Source: a virus. From it: a DNA stretch of 44,853 bases. The notes beneath the pieces are model-generated. The model did not search any database. It was not told where the DNA came from and was given only the letters and a program-made list of their open reading frames with translations. The first letter of the stretch is position 1, and every line of letters begins with the position of its first letter. Both the position numbers and the translations under genes were made by a program. This document shows positions 3,805 to 44,853 of this stretch, piece by piece. The stretch is taken from IMG/VR virus record IMGVR_UViG_3300046817_000553, positions 1 through 44,853 of that record; one strand, written 5' to 3'.

Positions 3805-4392
3805 TTATTGGTAGTCTTCCCGATGCTCCAGTTCGCTCACTCGCTCTTCTAGTCTGTTGAGCCGATCGACAATCTGAGACAACAACTCTGCTACATCATC
3901 CCACGTTCCTGCAGGCTTCGCGGAAGACTTCCGAAAACCAGCTTCCACCATCGCACCGTGGGGGGATAGTTCCCCAGCGAGTACCTTGGTATGTAAGTCG
4001 GGACGGTCTTTTCGGAGACGGCGAAGAGCTGCTGCACTGGAAGTGCCTGTAGGTGCTTTATCTTGTATATTATACAATATAGTCGGGTGCCCAACGGGAT
4101 TTTGTAATGCCTGATCAAGCAAGTCAAGCGCCACAGGGTCATCCCCTACGATACGACGGACGAGGTCTACCGTTGTACCTAGCCCAGCGGCGGGGGGAGT
4201 AACTAGGAATGTCTCGAAACGGTCGTAGTGTACGACGCCAACACCAGGAGCATCGAACTCGTGCCAGGACCCTGTCTCAAGCAATTGCTTGAGAAGGAGT
4301 GGCGCGTTGCCGATAGCAGATTCTCCGCGCGTGATGGATGATCCCAAAGCACGGACGAGGTCTCCTCGCTCGCGCAGATTCAATTCACCCAT
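3805..4392 (-). CDS. putative DNA-binding protein, C-terminal coiled coil
   Basis: 195 residues. A conserved-looking block near residues 115-160 (TSSAAALRRLRKDRPDLH, VLAGELSPHGAMVEAGFRK) is a module I recall from many uncharacterised proteins of plasmids, phages and cyanobacteria/Chloroflexi, with an HTH-like helix pattern. The last 35 residues form a heptad coiled coil (SQIVDRLNRLEERVSELEHR), suggesting an oligomer. The ATG at 4392 overlaps the helicase stop by 8 nt (ATGGGTGA) and has GAGGAAAG upstream. With dyad repeats downstream, a partition or regulatory role is possible, but no ParA-type ATPase was seen. Confidence 0.65.
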   Translation of the reverse strand: MGELNLRERGDLVRALGSSITRGESAIGNAPLLLKQLLETGSWHEFDAPGVGVVHYDRFETFLVTPPAAGLGTTVDLVRRIVGDDPVALDLLDQALQNPVGHPTILYNIQDKAPTGTSSAAALRRLRKDRPDLHTKVLAGELSPHGAMVEAGFRKSSAKPAGTWDDVAELLSQIVDRLNRLEERVSELEHREDYQ

Positions 4393-6322
4393 TGCTTTCC
4401 TCTTTGAACTTACGCAGCATCTCGTCAATGTAATGTATTTCTTGTCCTATCTCTTCCATCGTGAGAGCATCGCGACCCTTGCCAAATCGGCGCACCAGCA
4501 TTCCACCGAACGTCTGGAAGTCAATATTCATGGTGATCGCGGCGTGCTTAGCTGTGCTGTCCAGTTGCTTTTTCAGAAGGCGCTTGCGGTGCTCCTTTGA
4601 CATTTCCTGCGCAACAGTGCGAACACCTATCGAGTTACCTTGCACATCAGCACGCAACCCCAGCATACGCTTGTATTGAGCGAGCATAGCCGGGTTCGGG
4701 AACGCGTAGCCTTGTGCCTGTAACCGGACGGCGTCTTGTTCCGCTTCTCTGTATTCATCTGGCGTGAAGCGTTCTTTCCCTCGTAAGACGCTGTCAAGTG
4801 TGGCGTCCACTGCGGTCCACGCTCTCAGGTTCGGCTCATCGTCCAACTCTCCACTAGCTTCGAGCCGTTCGAGATACGCCCGCTTCCGTTCCTCCTCGTC
4901 TATTGCCAGCTCGATAGCGTGCCGCAGTTCACTCTGGATCTCGCTGGAGATGGCTAGCAGATCGGGTACGGCTGGTACAAACAAGACAGCGTCACGAGTT
5001 TCTGTCTCACCTCGCCGACGGACGAAACGGCCAGCAATTTGCCGAAACAGGAGAGGAGACGTCTTGCGAGTGGCATATACGCCGACATACAATTGGGCGA
5101 CGTCGACGCCTTCGGAGACCATATTCACGGCCACTGCCCACTTGCAGGACCTTTCACGGAAACGGTTGAGCGCGTCGCGCGCATCCTTTTCATCGGAAAC
5201 AATCAGCTCGACTTTCTCACCTGTGAGGCTCTGCAACAGGTCTCGAATCGCTCTCGCGTGTGGTTGGTCATCAGCAATGACGAGCCCCTGGGCATCAGGA
5301 ACTGCACCATCATCCACAGTGCCTGCTCGTATAGTGGTGAGTTCTGCAATTGCTTTGCCCAGGATGGTGGGAATCCATTCTTGTTTAGGGTCAAGGATTG
5401 CCCGCATGGCCTGTGATCGGTCCTCGCGTTCTACATCTGCTAAGTCACTGAGCGACATAGTGGCAGATGTGGCCAGTTCGAGCTCCGTACACTGGATGTT
5501 CGCGTCATAGGCATGGAACTGGAGCACTCTACAAGCTGGTGGTGTTTCGCTGACTGCTTTGCCGTAAGAGTAGCTATAATCGGGCTGGATTTCCCCTTTG
5601 TAGTCATAGGCAACAAAGGGGATGCTGCCAGACTTTGGACGTCTCCAGGGGGTCCCCGTCAATCCAATGCGCAAGGTAGCATTCTCGAATCCGTGGATCA
5701 GATTCTGCCCCCATGACTTGTTGTCACCAGCATGATGAATCTCATCAAAGATGACAAGCGTGTGACGGTCGCTGCACGCCTTACGCTGGAGATCAGGCTG
5801 CGCTGCGACCTGGGCATATGTCAGGGCACAACCCTCGAAGTCTGTATAGTTTTCGTGGCCACCTTTGGCGTTCTCGGACGCTTCGAGATGGATGATCCGT
5901 TGGCCGTTCTTCCGGTCTCGGCCTAGCCATTGATCGCGGACACTCTCAGACGGAGCAATGATGACGACACGTTGAACAGTGCCACGATCCAAGAGGCGTC
6001 GCGCTAGCGTGAGTGTCCATGTTGTTTTTCCAGCACCTGGGCACGCGCAGCAGAGGAAGTCTCGTTTCTTTGCCGCCTCGTATCGCTCCAGTGCTTCCTC
6101 CTGCCATACGCGTAAGGGTTGAGCCATATTATCCCCCTTCTTGAGGTTGCATGCCGGGCACAACGCTTGCCCGTTCATTACATCAGTTACACCCCCCTTG
6201 CTGTAAGGGTGTTCGTGGTCTGCGTGCCATCCTGCCTGGAGGTCCGCTCCACAGATAGCACACTTGCCATCCTGGAACAGATAGAGCGCTACACGCTCAC
6301 GACTGTTGAACCGTCTCCTCAT
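4385..6322 (-). CDS. HNH nuclease fused to SF2 DEAD/DEAH helicase
   Basis: 645 residues. Residues 20-65 form an HNH domain with two Cys pairs (C21-x2-C24, C55-x2-C58) and the catalytic-type HADHEHP. Next comes a superfamily 2 helicase: Walker A CPGAGKTT (94-101), DEIH (193-196), LTGTPWR (221-227), and motif VI FRQIAGRFVRR. The C-terminal 180 residues are charged, helical and unassigned. A nicking or cutting head joined to an unwinding motor suggests DNA processing, such as replication restart, recombination, defence or exclusion. It overlaps the RHH gene by 26 nt, and AAGAGGAT 8 nt upstream supports the start. Confidence 0.88.
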   Translation of the reverse strand: MRRRFNSRERVALYLFQDGKCAICGADLQAGWHADHEHPYSKGGVTDVMNGQALCPACNLKKGDNMAQPLRVWQEEALERYEAAKKRDFLCCACPGAGKTTWTLTLARRLLDRGTVQRVVIIAPSESVRDQWLGRDRKNGQRIIHLEASENAKGGHENYTDFEGCALTYAQVAAQPDLQRKACSDRHTLVIFDEIHHAGDNKSWGQNLIHGFENATLRIGLTGTPWRRPKSGSIPFVAYDYKGEIQPDYSYSYGKAVSETPPACRVLQFHAYDANIQCTELELATSATMSLSDLADVEREDRSQAMRAILDPKQEWIPTILGKAIAELTTIRAGTVDDGAVPDAQGLVIADDQPHARAIRDLLQSLTGEKVELIVSDEKDARDALNRFRERSCKWAVAVNMVSEGVDVAQLYVGVYATRKTSPLLFRQIAGRFVRRRGETETRDAVLFVPAVPDLLAISSEIQSELRHAIELAIDEEERKRAYLERLEASGELDDEPNLRAWTAVDATLDSVLRGKERFTPDEYREAEQDAVRLQAQGYAFPNPAMLAQYKRMLGLRADVQGNSIGVRTVAQEMSKEHRKRLLKKQLDSTAKHAAITMNIDFQTFGGMLVRRFGKGRDALTMEEIGQEIHYIDEMLRKFKEESNG

Positions 6323-6494
6323 CAGTGATCCTCTTGTACTCTTGCCTGATTAGCCTCCTGATCATCATGGAACTCGCCCGCTCCGTCTCTGGATAGTATC
6401 GCTTCGTCAGCTCATCCAACATTCTCTGCTCCTCATTGGTCAGTCGAATACCGACTCGAATACCAAGAACTCGTGCTGATTTTTTCTCAGCCAT
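6297..6494 (-). CDS. ribbon-helix-helix-like small protein
   Basis: 65 residues. An N-terminal basic strand-like segment (ARVLGIRVGIRLTNEEQRML) followed by two helices (DELTKRYY, ERASSMMIRRLIRQEYKRI) matches the general pattern of RHH/MetJ-Arc-type DNA-binding proteins. It is first in the minus operon with the HNH-helicase and directly behind a divergent promoter pair, so autoregulation and control of the plus-strand cassette are plausible. The SD, GGAGGTGA, is very strong and fixes the start. Confidence 0.65.
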   Translation of the reverse strand: MAEKKSARVLGIRVGIRLTNEEQRMLDELTKRYYPETERASSMMIRRLIRQEYKRITDEETVQQS

Positions 6495-6549: not shown

Positions 6550-6578
6550 TTGACATTGATGACATCGTATGTTATCAT
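6550..6578 (+). promoter_or_regulatory. strong promoter for the plus-strand cassette
   Basis: -35 TTGACA (6550-6555, exact consensus), 17-bp spacer, -10 TATCAT (6573-6578) preceded by TGT. It gives a leader of nearly 290 nt before the first gene at 6874. A second extended -10 (TGGTATAAA, 6728-6736) lies inside the leader. Confidence 0.7.
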
Positions 6579-6663
6579 AGGAGTAGACGCTAGTTGACAC
6601 CTAGCCTTAGTACTTTTAAAAGCTTACGCGGACCTCAGCCGGGGACGACTCGGAGGGGGCTAC

Positions 6664-6725
6664 ATGCGTAAAAACTGACACTCATCGACCCGTGGCACGT
6701 CTGACCCGTCCGTCGCGAGTGTCAG
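6664..6725 (+). promoter_or_regulatory. leader with 4-codon uORF and 9-bp stem
   Basis: In the leader, GGAGGGGG precedes ATG-CGT-AAA-AAC-TGA (6664-6678), a four-codon reading frame (MRKN). Its stop codon falls on the left arm of a perfect 9-bp inverted repeat, CTGACACTC (6675-6683) with GAGTGTCAG (6717-6725). This could be a translation-coupled attenuator for the membrane-protein cassette. Apart from this and an AT-rich CTTTTAAAAG palindrome near 6613, I see nothing coding between 6579 and 6873. Confidence 0.35.
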
Positions 6726-6873
6726 CATGGTATAAAACTACTATTGGATCTGGCGCTGCCCGCCTGAGCGGTGAACTCAGACGAGCAGCTAACACAACAT
6801 GTGATTGGGCACATGCGGTGCTGGCAACAGTATAACGCATGCGCCTTCAGGTACGACACTTGGAGGTTTGCGC

Positions 6874-8031
6874 ATGAACACTCGTACCGGTTTCTTTGCA
6901 AAGATTCGTTCTCGACTCTTCGGTGAGCTTGATCCGATTGAGTCACAACTCAAAGAGATCAGCCGTCAAGGCGCTGGAATGGCGCGCGTAGCTCACCTAT
7001 GCGCTATCGTGATGATCTTCCTCTTCTCACTTGGTTCCCTTGTCGCGCTCGGCGGTGACGCCTTGAACAGCATCATCGCCGGGTGGAATCGTGGCCAGGT
7101 CGATGTCCCGTCCTCGATCAGCGTGGCGGTCTCGACCCTCTTCGTCGCGTGTATGGATGTGGGTATGGTCTATGCTGCCTCGGTGCTTCGGCGCTTAGCG
7201 GCGCGGCGGGCTGATCCCGCTGAGAAACGGTTATACACTGCGGTCATCGCTGGTGTCACCGTTCTCGAGGCTGCTACCTACGCCTACATGTCGGTACGGT
7301 ATGAGCACCCGGCAAATCTGGCGGTCCTGGCGCTCATCTTGGCCCGCGCGGCAACAGCTCCGCTGTTAAGTGTGTTTCTGGCGATGGCACGACCCATCCC
7401 GGTGTCCTCGCGTGACATTCTGTACCAGGCAGAACTCATCACGGGGACTGGCGTTTTACGACATGTCACGGTATTGGCCAACAATCCCGAGGCAAAGCTC
7501 GCCGACTTGCTCCTGATGTACCAGGCAGCTGGCTACAGCAGTGAGAGTGACCGCAAGCGTCTCTCCGATCTGATCCAGGTCGCGCAATCTGGGTCGTCTG
7601 AGAGCTCCGCTTCAGTCACAGTTTTCGAGACCGATCAGGGGCCGACGTTCCCAACCGGAGGCGGAACGCCAGTTCAAATCTCGGAAGCCCTGGATTCCGC
7701 AGAGGATCTAGGCAATGTGGTGGCGCTGGAGCGGAACTTGGAACGTTCCGTTGCGGTGCCCCTCCAACCAGCGGCAGAAGCTGTTGCTCCAAGCAAAAAG
7801 CGGCCATACCGGTCGTTCCCGACGCCTGCGGCGGAAGAGGCGGCTGGTTTCGCGGTGCTGGATGAGGCGGGCTGGACCGATGAGGGAAAGCCGGCCATGA
7901 GTAAAGCGGCATTCCGGCGCGTCATGAATATCAACAACGATGATGCACGCGCGCTCTACTCCCGGTGGTATTACTCGCGGAAGCCACACCAGAATGTGAC
8001 GCCTGGGGTTGAACAGGACGTCGCCCAATAG
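6874..8031 (+). CDS. multi-pass membrane protein with cytoplasmic C-terminal region
   Basis: 385 residues, family not recognised. About four transmembrane helices lie near residues 38-60, 85-107, 122-142 and 150-172, separated by short basic loops (LRRLAARRADPAEKR). A roughly 200-residue soluble C-terminal part has a low-complexity middle and ends in a helical segment (SKAAFRRVMNINNDDARALY) that could bind nucleic acid or protein. The ATG at 6874 has TGGAGG 7 nt upstream; the longer frame starting at 6805 lacks an SD. As first gene of the cassette behind a strong own promoter, it may be expressed in the prophage state. Confidence 0.7.
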   Translation: MNTRTGFFAKIRSRLFGELDPIESQLKEISRQGAGMARVAHLCAIVMIFLFSLGSLVALGGDALNSIIAGWNRGQVDVPSSISVAVSTLFVACMDVGMVYAASVLRRLAARRADPAEKRLYTAVIAGVTVLEAATYAYMSVRYEHPANLAVLALILARAATAPLLSVFLAMARPIPVSSRDILYQAELITGTGVLRHVTVLANNPEAKLADLLLMYQAAGYSSESDRKRLSDLIQVAQSGSSESSASVTVFETDQGPTFPTGGGTPVQISEALDSAEDLGNVVALERNLERSVAVPLQPAAEAVAPSKKRPYRSFPTPAAEEAAGFAVLDEAGWTDEGKPAMSKAAFRRVMNINNDDARALYSRWYYSRKPHQNVTPGVEQDVAQ

Positions 8032-8107
8032 ATAGTAGACTGTGTTGACAGTTCGCGCCGGACGTGTCGGACCTGCTACGGGTCATTTTATGCGCTGGAG
8101 GGGAAGC

Positions 8108-8338
8108 ATGTTTCAGATCAAGATTGCGCCTGCACATAATCTAGGTGTGATGTTTGGCACGGAGTTCGAGATAAGTCACTTCGAACTATCATCCACAGGA
8201 GACCCGCAAGACACACGTGTAAATCTCACCATAACTATCCCTGTCGTTAGTTTCGCGCAGATGCTGGATCAGAATACTAATATGGCAGATAGAACGGACT
8301 GCTTGGCTTTCTCAATAGTCGAGTTGTCCGATGATTGA
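8108..8338 (+). CDS. hypothetical protein, 76 aa
   Basis: 76-residue, beta-rich looking acidic protein (FQIKIAPAHN, VNLTITIPVVSF) of unknown function. GGAGGGGAAG immediately precedes the ATG at 8108, which is preferred to the longer frame from 8042. It is the second gene of the plus-strand cassette, between two membrane proteins. Confidence 0.6.
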   Translation: MFQIKIAPAHNLGVMFGTEFEISHFELSSTGDPQDTRVNLTITIPVVSFAQMLDQNTNMADRTDCLAFSIVELSDD

Positions 8339-8394
8339 CATAACGCCAAAATAAATTAGTACTATTTCGTCATAGACGACAAGCGAGGTTGACC

Positions 8395-8673
8395 ATGATT
8401 GTGAGTGAGGTGTTGCCTTGGCGGGAAGGGCGCTATATCATTCGCGCCTATGTTCCCAATGGCACCGACCACATCTACTCGGAGTTCCTGTTCAGGATAC
8501 CACCTGTCGAGTATGCACCGAGATCGGGTGACACGCTCGACTTTGAGAATCACGATGAGGATAGGCGCGTGCGGTTCAATCTTGGTCCGTGGATAAAGAT
8601 CACCGTCAATGACTATTCTGTGGCCTCGGGTACGTGTGTGGGAATGCCATTGACCGAAGCATTCAGATCATGA
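8395..8673 (+). CDS. hypothetical protein, 92 aa
   Basis: 92-residue protein, likely beta-sheet (REGRYIIRAYVPNG, VRFNLGPWIKITVNDY), soluble, function unknown. The ATG at 8395 has GAGG 7 nt upstream; a TTG two codons earlier is less likely. Its stop overlaps the start of the mannosyltransferase gene by 4 nt (ATGA), so the two are translationally coupled and may act together. Confidence 0.6.
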   Translation: MIVSEVLPWREGRYIIRAYVPNGTDHIYSEFLFRIPPVEYAPRSGDTLDFENHDEDRRVRFNLGPWIKITVNDYSVASGTCVGMPLTEAFRS

Positions 8674-9821
8674 AAGCCGTTCTCACCACCTGGGCAGGCT
8701 ATCTCAGCGCAGCAGCCATCGCAACGTACTTCGCGGTGCTGTTGCCGCTGCGTCCACATCCTGCTCAGGGCATGACCGTAGGGAAGCTGCTGGATCACTG
8801 GAACCGGTGGGATGCGTATGTGTTCTATCTGCCCATTGTGAAGCACGGGTACACGAAGCCAATTGACGCGACCTTCTTCCCCGGCTATCCAGCAATCGTC
8901 CACGTTCTGTGGACACTTACCGGCAAGCAGCATCTCGTCGCCGATGCTCTTGCCATCAGCGCACTCGGTCTGCTGCTAGCGCTCTTTGGACTCGCCGCTC
9001 TGGCACGACAATTGAACATTCCAACGCCACTGGTGTTGCTGTTGACCCTGACAGCCTCACCGGTGGCGTTCTTTTTGGTGGCGCCATACCCTACGAGCTT
9101 GCTGCTGGCCATCTTGGTCTGGTCGCTGTATTTCGCCAGGCGCACCACGTGGACATATCACTGGTATGCTGCTGCTGGACTCGCACTCCTGGCACCGTTG
9201 GTTCACCTGACTGGGCTGGCACTCTGGCCGGCGCTGGTGGTGGAGTTCATCGTGCAGCATCGAGGGAAGATGCGCGAGCTGCTGACGATCCTCCAGGGCG
9301 CTGTCGTGCTCTTCTCCGCTCCAGTGGGACTCGGCATCTGGTGTGCGTACACGTCTGTCCGCTACCATGATCCGCTGGCGTGGCTGCACCAGGAGCAGGT
9401 GTTCGGGCATATCCACGTGTGGCCGTGGCAGACCATCTGGCTACTCTGGCAAGACTGGCAACACTACCCGAGCTTCAGCTACGGGCAGGCACGCCTGCTC
9501 ATCGACGCGCTGCCACTCATGCTCTCGGCACTCCTGTTCGCCTGGGCGATCTCCTCGAGGAGCCTGCCGGCGTCGTTCTACGTGCTGTGGGCGCTGCTAC
9601 TCTATGCCACCATCGCATCACCGGTGGTGGGTATGCAGATCGACGACGCGATTCTCTCCGCTGGTCGCTACCTGCTACCCGCCGTTCCCGCGACGCTGTT
9701 TCTCGCCATGAAAGCCAAGGAGCCCCGCTATCAGACGGGACTGTTGTTGTGTGTCGCCCTGTGTAGTGTGCTGCAGGTGGTGTGCCTCGGCATCTACCTC
9801 AACGGCGGCTGGATAGTATGA
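8670..9821 (+). CDS. PIG-V-like GT-C mannosyltransferase (membrane glycosyltransferase)
   Basis: 383 residues with about eight or more transmembrane segments. RWDAYVFYLPIVKHGY (46-61) and FFPGYP (69-74) match the conserved luminal region of PIG-V-like GT-C mannosyltransferases, where the Trp-Asp pair includes the presumed catalytic Asp. Such enzymes transfer a sugar from a polyprenyl-phosphate donor to an acceptor at the membrane's outer face. In a virus this suggests alteration of the host's surface glycans: lysogenic conversion, receptor masking or superinfection exclusion. It is last in the plus-strand cassette, coupled to the preceding gene by ATGA. Confidence 0.8.
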   Translation: MKAVLTTWAGYLSAAAIATYFAVLLPLRPHPAQGMTVGKLLDHWNRWDAYVFYLPIVKHGYTKPIDATFFPGYPAIVHVLWTLTGKQHLVADALAISALGLLLALFGLAALARQLNIPTPLVLLLTLTASPVAFFLVAPYPTSLLLAILVWSLYFARRTTWTYHWYAAAGLALLAPLVHLTGLALWPALVVEFIVQHRGKMRELLTILQGAVVLFSAPVGLGIWCAYTSVRYHDPLAWLHQEQVFGHIHVWPWQTIWLLWQDWQHYPSFSYGQARLLIDALPLMLSALLFAWAISSRSLPASFYVLWALLLYATIASPVVGMQIDDAILSAGRYLLPAVPATLFLAMKAKEPRYQTGLLLCVALCSVLQVVCLGIYLNGGWIV

Positions 9822-9882: not shown

Positions 9883-10209
9883 CTATGAGGGTGATTTGAC
9901 CTCATTCAACCCTGTCTTCTGACTGATAACCGTCCCGACGTCACCAGCAATGGTCGCTCCAACGGTGTCACCCTGGCTCGTGAAGTACTTCTGGACCGTT
10001 GAGGCAAGTGTGAGACCCAACGTCCCAGCCCCTACCGTGATAACGGTGTGCCAGTTGATTGTCTGCTGCTCCACCAGTGGGAGGACTGCTACTACGGCAG
10101 TCAGCAGAATACTCCAGATAACTCCCTGCAGGAACTTGAGGAAGGAGCGCTCACCCGGCGTGAGCGGAAGTTGCAGACGCGCTCGAGTAAACATAGACGT
10201 CTTGACCAT
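9883..10209 (-). CDS. putative holin
   Basis: 108 residues with two transmembrane helices (about 28-48 and 55-78; WSILLTAVVAVLPLV and VITVGAGTLGLTLASTV), a charged N-terminus and a short hydrophilic C-terminus. The size and topology suit a holin, and it directly follows the peptidase gene at 10222, making a lysis pair at the end of the late operon. AGGAG lies 9 nt before the ATG at 10209; the ATG at 10215 is an alternative with very short spacing. Holins share little sequence, so the call rests on topology and place. Confidence 0.65.
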   Translation of the reverse strand: MVKTSMFTRARLQLPLTPGERSFLKFLQGVIWSILLTAVVAVLPLVEQQTINWHTVITVGAGTLGLTLASTVQKYFTSQGDTVGATIAGDVGTVISQKTGLNEVKSPS

Positions 10210-10221
10210 GATCATTGTCTC

Positions 10222-11214
10222 CTAGATGGCCTTGATGGCCGCTACAAGGTTGAGTGCTGCTTGCACCTCTGGTGACACAGGTGCCGGTGCTGGTGGCGTG
10301 CTGGCAGCCTTCTGCGCGGCTTCATAGAGGCCGTAGAGCTTCATCCACTCCTGGGCGAGTCCAGCACCAGCGAACCGCTTGAACTCAGCGCTAGGCGGAT
10401 CGGCCACAAAGAGCGTCCCATTCGAGAGACCGAGGAAAGCGGTATTGTTTGGGAGCGCTACGCTGTTTGAGAGGCCGTCGACGCCGAGATCGCCGTTGGC
10501 CTTCATCGCTGCTAGAAAGCCAGGCGTACAGACGTGCCCTTCTGCGTCTTTCCCGCTCCCATCTGTTTCGGTGCTCCATGCCATTGCTAGTGACCTCCCT
10601 ACGAACGCAACGCCCGCGCACGGGCGTGCAGCGGCGGCGACCGCATCAGGATAGAATTGCAGCACGTTGGCCGCGTTGAAATTGTTGGCGTTATTGTTGC
10701 CACCGGCGAAGTTATCACCATCAGCATCCCACCACCCAGGCGGCAAGATCTTCGTGGTCAGCTTCGAGGCGCCCCCGGTGTTACGCCCCAGGAAGCCGGT
10801 GAAGTGGTACTGGAGATTCACCGCGTTCTCGCCCTGGCCAGAGATGACATCGACGAGTGCCTGACCATTGGCGAACTCGAGGACGAAGGGATTGCCGTGA
10901 GTGATCTGCGTGAGTGCCCACGGCTCCCAGTCGGTCCAGGGCTCCGCATACTGCCGGAAGGCGGCGACCTTCAGCCCGAGCTTGATGCCAGTGGACTGCA
11001 CGCCACCGATCGTCATCGCACCGCTCGCATCACACCAGCCATTCGCTCGAGCGAGTTGATAGACTTGCGCGGTGCTGAAGGTCTTATCGAGTACGCTGGT
11101 GGCACAGGCGGCGAGCGCTTGCAGGCCACAGGCACCCATCACGCGACCGACTCCTGGCACCAGCGCGAACTCGGTTTGCCGGTAGAGCGGAGCGGCGCAC
11201 AGGATCTCGCTCAT
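10222..11214 (-). CDS. C39-like cysteine peptidase, putative endolysin
   Basis: 330 residues. The order Cys in GACGLQALA (about residue 29), His in LQYHFTGFLG (about 137), then an acidic GWWDADGDN resembles papain/C39-fold peptidases used as peptidoglycan hydrolases by some phages. The C-terminal third includes a Pro/Ala-rich linker (STPPAPAPVSP) and helical ends. No signal peptide is visible, so export would depend on the neighbouring holin. It is at the usual lysis position after the tail genes. It may instead be a virion-associated hydrolase. Confidence 0.65.
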   Translation of the reverse strand: MSEILCAAPLYRQTEFALVPGVGRVMGACGLQALAACATSVLDKTFSTAQVYQLARANGWCDASGAMTIGGVQSTGIKLGLKVAAFRQYAEPWTDWEPWALTQITHGNPFVLEFANGQALVDVISGQGENAVNLQYHFTGFLGRNTGGASKLTTKILPPGWWDADGDNFAGGNNNANNFNAANVLQFYPDAVAAAARPCAGVAFVGRSLAMAWSTETDGSGKDAEGHVCTPGFLAAMKANGDLGVDGLSNSVALPNNTAFLGLSNGTLFVADPPSAEFKRFAGAGLAQEWMKLYGLYEAAQKAASTPPAPAPVSPEVQAALNLVAAIKAI

Positions 11215-44149: not shown

Positions 44150-44755
44150 TCACGCTCCTTCCTTCTCTGGTGGGTCGTCGTCCTCGGGCCATTCGCCACG
44201 CGCATGGAGCGCCGCAGCATAGAGGCGGGCAATCACCTCAAACGTGAGGGGGAACTTCAGCTCGCAGTAGTTCTTGTTGGTGTCTTCCCACCACAGATCG
44301 CCACCGCCATCCGGTCGCAGCGCCGCACGATAGCGAAGCTCTCCACCGGCAGGCAGCAGACGCCTGACCAACTCATAGCTGACCCACCCATCGCTCTGTC
44401 CGATCGGCACCGGCGTTACATCTGGTGGTGGACCCGGCAACACTAATCGCGAGGTGGGGATGTCACTGAAGACCGATCGGCGCCGCTGCTCCTGTTCCCA
44501 GGCGCGCAGCCGCTGCTCTCTCGTGCGCGTGTCACTTGGGCGTGGGAGATGCGCGATGCCAGCAGATTGCCCCTGTAACGCGCTAGCATGACCACCAGGG
44601 TGTCTTGGCCGCTCTACAGGTTCCAGTGGTCGTATCGGCGGCTCAGGTGCTCTCCTGGTCACTCCATCGCGTTTGGCAGCGTTTCTGATCTTGCTCCTGA
44701 TGATGCCCTGGCTGTCGTCTGGCCAGTCGTCCTTCTGGTCTCTAGTGGCTACCAT
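44150..44755 (-). CDS. hypothetical protein, 201 aa
   Basis: 201 residues: a basic, Pro/Arg-rich N-terminal half (disordered-looking) and a folded C-terminal part (GWVSYELVRRLLPAGGELRY, then DLWWEDTNKNYCELKFPLTF). GGGAAGGTGG directly precedes the ATG at 44755, which lies in the terminal repeat. It overlaps the end of the 16-417 gene by 14 nt across the joined circle. Not recognised. Confidence 0.6.
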   Translation of the reverse strand: MVATRDQKDDWPDDSQGIIRSKIRNAAKRDGVTRRAPEPPIRPLEPVERPRHPGGHASALQGQSAGIAHLPRPSDTRTREQRLRAWEQEQRRRSVFSDIPTSRLVLPGPPPDVTPVPIGQSDGWVSYELVRRLLPAGGELRYRAALRPDGGGDLWWEDTNKNYCELKFPLTFEVIARLYAAALHARGEWPEDDDPPEKEGA

Positions 44756-44853
44756 CTGAACCACCTTCCCAAGGATCTGCCGGACGAGGCCAGAAATACC
44801 AGTTGAAGGCGCGTCGTGTCTGGTCACGTAGGACGATGCGTGTCTGGAAATCG
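44727..44853. repeat. 127-bp terminal direct repeat, right copy
   Basis: Exact copy of 1-127. Joining the two removes one copy and yields a continuous minus-strand operon. Confidence 0.95.

Follow-up and report, generated by a model that had tools for sequence, protein, structure and literature searches.

Do the four plus-strand genes at 6874–9821 of a temperate phage genome form a single system that alters or guards the surface of the host cell, as was originally predicted from the sequence, or were they brought together from separate sources? The window analysed here is the whole of virus record IMGVR_UViG_3300046817_000553 (44,853 nt). Our best explanation, held at a probability of about one half, is lysogenic surface conversion by the glycosyltransferase (GT) that gene 4 encodes, with gene 1 acting separately. 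A conversion or exclusion function thus survives from the original prediction as a reasonable reading of the GT, whose GT-C assignment is backed by our results, but the four-gene 'module' does not.

The phage and the layout of its cassette

The ends of the record are identical, so it represents a complete closed circle of ~44.7 kb rather than a fragment. Its gene set (integrase, terminase, Mu-type portal, DnaB-type helicase, RecT and DNA methylase) is that of a temperate tailed phage (Table 1); no tRNA or Rfam match was found when a tRNA-derived attP was looked for. Elsewhere in the genome, an N-terminal HNH endonuclease is fused to a phage-helicase-like SF2 (ResIII-type) helicase (4385–6322, minus strand). 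A second metagenome contains a 100% identical fragment of the phage, in which the cassette region was not detected. Judged by portal (50%), the nearest prophage belongs to a Chloroflexi metagenome-assembled genome and is collinear with the phage between terminase and tail. Several genomes of the same class carry DNA resembling the tail and lysis genes of the phage. A Chloroflexota host is therefore probable, and its class is probably Ktedonobacteria. Related tail genes, some with lysin or holin genes, also stand in the chromosomes of several Chloroflexota genomes (L153, L161, L162 and L166); they may represent tail-derived particles or what is left of prophages.

Table 1. Features of the cassette, its flanks and the phage genome
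Feature	Position	Strand	Basis and remarks
Direct terminal repeat, 127 bp, exact	1–127 = 44727–44853		Sequence identity of both ends
Tyrosine integrase	1820–2758	−	Pfam, 7.1e-26
Small RHH/Arc-like candidate repressor gene, divergent from the cassette	6297–6494	−	Weak matches: PHROG Arc-like 0.066, Pfam RHH_1 0.41
Sigma-70-type promoter TTGACA-17-TATCAT, extended −10	6550–6578	+	11/12 consensus matches; the host's own promoter rules may differ
Near-perfect 21-bp palindrome TGATGACAT-CGT-ATGTTATCA	6557–6577		Overlaps −10; single copy in window; candidate operator
Untranslated leader, ~290 nt	6586–6873	+	Folds better than shuffles, z −2.8
Gene 1, 385 aa: four-helix membrane domain, cytoplasmic tail, putative HTH-like C terminus	6874–8031	+	Homologues, model, coding signal
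Gene 2, 76-aa orphan	8108–8338	+	ATG 8108 behind GGAGGGG, a strong Shine–Dalgarno sequence; coding signal
Gene 3, 92-aa orphan; ATGA overlap with GT start	8395–8673	+	Coding signal; without clear relatives
Gene 4, GT-C (PIG-V-like) polytopic glycosyltransferase, 383 aa	8670–9821	+	Structure model, alignment, family matches of relatives
Last gene of the lysis operon, holin-like; convergent with the cassette	9883–10215	−	Relatives in Chloroflexota tail/lysis modules; putative function, from position
Candidate lysin (peptidase-like)	10222–11214	−	Relatives adjoin tail genes in L153 and L161, and occur in L152; putative function

All four genes are present as predicted: scored with the codon usage of the phage itself, each frame exceeds the other five frames and 500 base shuffles, gene 2 narrowly so (9.3 against 6.5 for the best shuffle). 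The coupling of genes 3 and 4 is likewise borne out, by an ATGA overlap at 8670–8673, and the GT start has no Shine–Dalgarno sequence of its own. A sequence matching the strong promoter ascribed to the cassette is present, with a TG before its second hexamer, at a corrected position ~295 bp upstream of gene 1; promoter-like sites in the region number 6, against 1.8 ± 1.3 in shuffles. The palindrome overlapping it and the RHH-like protein encoded divergently could possibly form a repressor–operator pair, as far as the sequences suggest, and the leader that follows has no meaningful match in Rfam. The cassette had been placed at the edge of the late operon. It does adjoin the lysis operon, 61 bp separating the GT gene from the holin-like one, but is convergent with it.

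A GT-C enzyme of probable host type

Absence of a GT-C fold had been set as an observation that would refute the original prediction. The AlphaFold model of gene 4 is of high confidence (pLDDT 93.1, pTM 0.92), and each of its strong matches in the PDB is either a GT-C enzyme or a complex that includes one (OST/PglB/AglB, ALG3, ALG9, ALG12, ArnT, AftB, PIG-U, PimE, Pmt4 and Emb; many at probability 1.00 and TM ~0.4–0.55). On the evidence of this predicted structure, gene 4 is a genuine GT-C enzyme. The WDA and FFPGYP motifs are both present as described; an alignment of 30 sequences shows no variation at D48 (of WDA, first outer loop), F70 or P71, and the residues kept also include G60–Y61, P131, Y140, L185, R333 and P340. 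As in other members of the family, D48 would be the catalytic acidic residue. Pfam PIG-V (PF04188) is matched by 23 of the 30 aligned sequences (best 3.7e-11) and NCBIfam NF046093, 'cell surface glycopolymer formation', by 26; the phage GT itself has no match among Pfam (PIG-V included), PHROG or NCBIfam models.

Relatives of the GT occur in 106 of 400 Chloroflexota genomes in a sensitive whole-genome search (25–39% identity among the matches listed), and a single-sequence scan of genome contigs returned none. They are scattered, sometimes tandem, chromosomal genes, and at the four loci inspected no obvious glycopolymer operon surrounds them. The phage protein forms a long branch (1.79) in the tree, placed without a supported clade. 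GT-C-like matches in a viral structure library are few (two at E < 0.001, few at high probability), those at high probability being without annotated function. We read gene 4 as a host-type GT-C enzyme.

Gene 1, the two orphans and the four-gene question

The claim that gene 1 has four transmembrane segments agrees with the four long helices of its AF2 model, itself of low confidence. Searching relatives of the Chloroflexi genome that carries the portal-nearest prophage gave eight good homologues in four genomes (four copies in G118; G214, G246 and G277), 37–55% identical over roughly the first 260 residues, with fragments elsewhere. The neighbours of these homologues encode a tyrosine integrase, an HTH_17 excisionase, an XRE regulator and a primase of AEP-TOTE-like type that bears a CHC2-like zinc finger, which places the gene 1 family in integrative elements of Chloroflexota; the primase follows the homologue in G118, and in other elements the integrase and excisionase lie near. 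No GT gene was found near the homologues at these eight element loci. A family of integrative elements in one Chloroflexota class (L103–L106, L107, L108, L102 and L098/L099) combines a four-helix membrane protein with an integrase and either an AEP-TOTE-like primase or another replication protein, four copies of such elements residing in G118. The gene 1 family may offer a marker for them.

These neighbourhoods raise the possibility that gene 1 is the functional core of the cassette and the GT a passenger. Gene 1 would then be an SpdB/DUF2637-like membrane protein whose tail binds DNA and which helps the element to persist, to spread or to hold immunity. Beyond the integrase, excisionase, primase and XRE genes beside its relatives, this idea draws on the DUF2637 genes that adjoin or lie near the integrase in the three actinophage records inspected that have one (D29, UhSalsa and Whack), and on SpdB2, an oligomeric DNA-binding membrane protein (PMC4170104). 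The AF2 model of gene 1 is, however, poor, and Pfam DUF2637 (PF10935) is unmatched; a profile–profile comparison, in register over an IVDG motif, reaches only 2.6% probability (E 0.018, 58 columns; E 0.25 for an unrelated control). We consider this reading unlikely, yet worth keeping in view. In all, 583 actinophage records (for example, L173–L175) encode DUF2637-like membrane proteins, annotated for the most part as hypothetical or even as excisionase.

Genes 2 and 3 may be young phage genes. No relative of gene 2 was found in the family libraries, and gene 3 has no relative in IMG/VR by single-sequence search and one marginal partial match (0.0065) in 400 genomes. A true four-gene exclusion module would make gene 1 a membrane sensor or anchor, genes 2 and 3 cytoplasmic regulators or acceptors, and the GT the enzyme that modifies the receptor; it would account for one strand, one promoter and the ATGA coupling of genes 3 and 4. 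Against it stand the lack of clear gene 3 relatives, the eight gene 1 loci described above and the distribution of the genes: searches of IMG/VR, of phage and plasmid records, of 25 records related by portal or terminase and of Chloroflexota genomes did not recover the four together, an absence that falls short of proof because these collections contain no close phage relative covering the cassette slot. The original prediction had named failure to co-occur elsewhere as grounds for giving up the system, and since co-occurrence is absent from the data searched, the system fails on those terms; we regard the module as improbable.

IMG/VR holds no close relatives of the GT, gene 1 or gene 3 by single-sequence search, or of the GT or gene 1 by alignment; phage and plasmid records hold none of the GT or gene 1; and neither gene lies beside the lysis or tail relatives in G214, G174, G206, G118 and G277. 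A GtrA gene (L161) and a GT2 gene (L166) near tail or lysis relatives were judged chromosomal. The portal-nearest prophage (L004/L118) was considered as a source of the same region and set aside, its tail region being followed by a CRISPR array in place of the cassette. This array is large (L118:8300–15540), directly downstream of the tail genes, and has no match to the phage.

Proposed surface conversion and comparison with known systems

The preferred reading, surface conversion of the lysogen by the GT, would make the cassette a moron region of mixed origin whose genes came from separate sources. Its transcription in the prophage would probably start from the 6550 promoter; the integrase, the orientation of the GT opposite to the lysis operon and the separate promoter all point to a lysogenic role. 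The donors of such GT-C enzymes are lipid-linked sugars on the outer side of the membrane. Fold and family suggest that the phage GT would there add a sugar, likely mannose, to a glycan or protein of the host surface, with a polyprenyl-phosphate sugar as donor; this change would in turn alter phage adsorption to the lysogen. Gene 1 would encode a protein of mobile elements, anchored in the membrane, that serves a separate purpose (maintenance, spread or immunity) and is no partner of the GT. The ATGA overlap counts against this explanation, as the sequence arrangement points to joint action of genes 3 and 4 at least. So do the lack of any family-model match and the long branch of the phage GT, and the solitary position of its chromosomal relatives outside glycopolymer operons. 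If the explanation is true, a lone PIG-V-like GT-C enzyme in a phage would mean that phage surface conversion is not confined to gtrABC, and the gene would offer direct access to the receptor glycans of Chloroflexota, whose temperate phages are little known.

Among known families, gene 1 recalls DUF2637/SpdB of actinobacterial plasmids and phages. It shares a four-helix N-terminal domain, a cytoplasmic tail and a putative HTH-like end, and in both families the genes adjoin integrase or replication/partition genes of mobile elements, several DUF2637/SpdB genes lying next to integrase or ParA genes; it differs in having no Pfam match, and the similarity of profiles given above does not establish homology. 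Ktedonobacteria grow as a mycelium, and SpdB serves the spread of elements in Streptomyces. It is conceivable, though doubtful, that gene 1 belongs to a membrane-anchored DNA-binding family that, like SpdB, helps the element to spread or to be maintained across the mycelium, with the phage adding surface-glycan conversion; the novelty would then be an undescribed family common to a temperate phage and to integrative elements of Ktedonobacteria.

In layout, the cassette can be likened to the two-component prophage defence of Sbash and Butters (gp30–gp31), in which a four-pass membrane protein and a cytoplasmic protein act after injection, for example by membrane depolarisation. Such pairs are found in mycobacteriophages (PMC7542560), and the present temperate phage likewise encodes small soluble proteins after a membrane protein of four helices. 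PADLOC nevertheless has no match for any of the four genes, the cytoplasmic tail of gene 1 is large, and its relatives are followed by primase, excisionase or other genes, not by genes 2 or 3, so that we think a defence of this type very unlikely. Least probable of all is action of the GT in the lytic cycle, such as glycosylation of virion or lysis proteins or of the envelope before release, which its place beside the lysis operon might suggest but which sits poorly with a strand opposite to the late genes, a separate promoter and active sites that, in GT-C enzymes of this kind, face the outside of the membrane.

For conversion by the GT, the closest analogy would be the GtrABC serotype-conversion operons of P22 and the Shigella phages, where again a temperate phage carries a polytopic GT that uses a lipid-linked sugar and likely targets a surface glycan. 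The phage differs in that no GtrA-like flippase and no GT2-like (GtrB) donor synthase was found among the cassette neighbours and window ORFs. Within gtrABC operons the last step falls to GtrC, the enzyme that varies, while GtrA and GtrB are conserved and in some cases interchangeable (PMC3688519, PMC11436027), which makes a lone GtrC-like enzyme working on a host polyprenyl-phosphate sugar plausible; the phage GT would act as such a lone GtrC, the host supplying the lipid-linked sugar. As a protein, the phage GT differs from PIG-V/Mannosyl_trans2 (PF04188) and NF046093 in falling below both models, in its long branch and in being phage-borne, but it shares with these members of the GT-C superfamily the fold and the WDA and FFPxYP motifs, and its relatives match their models.
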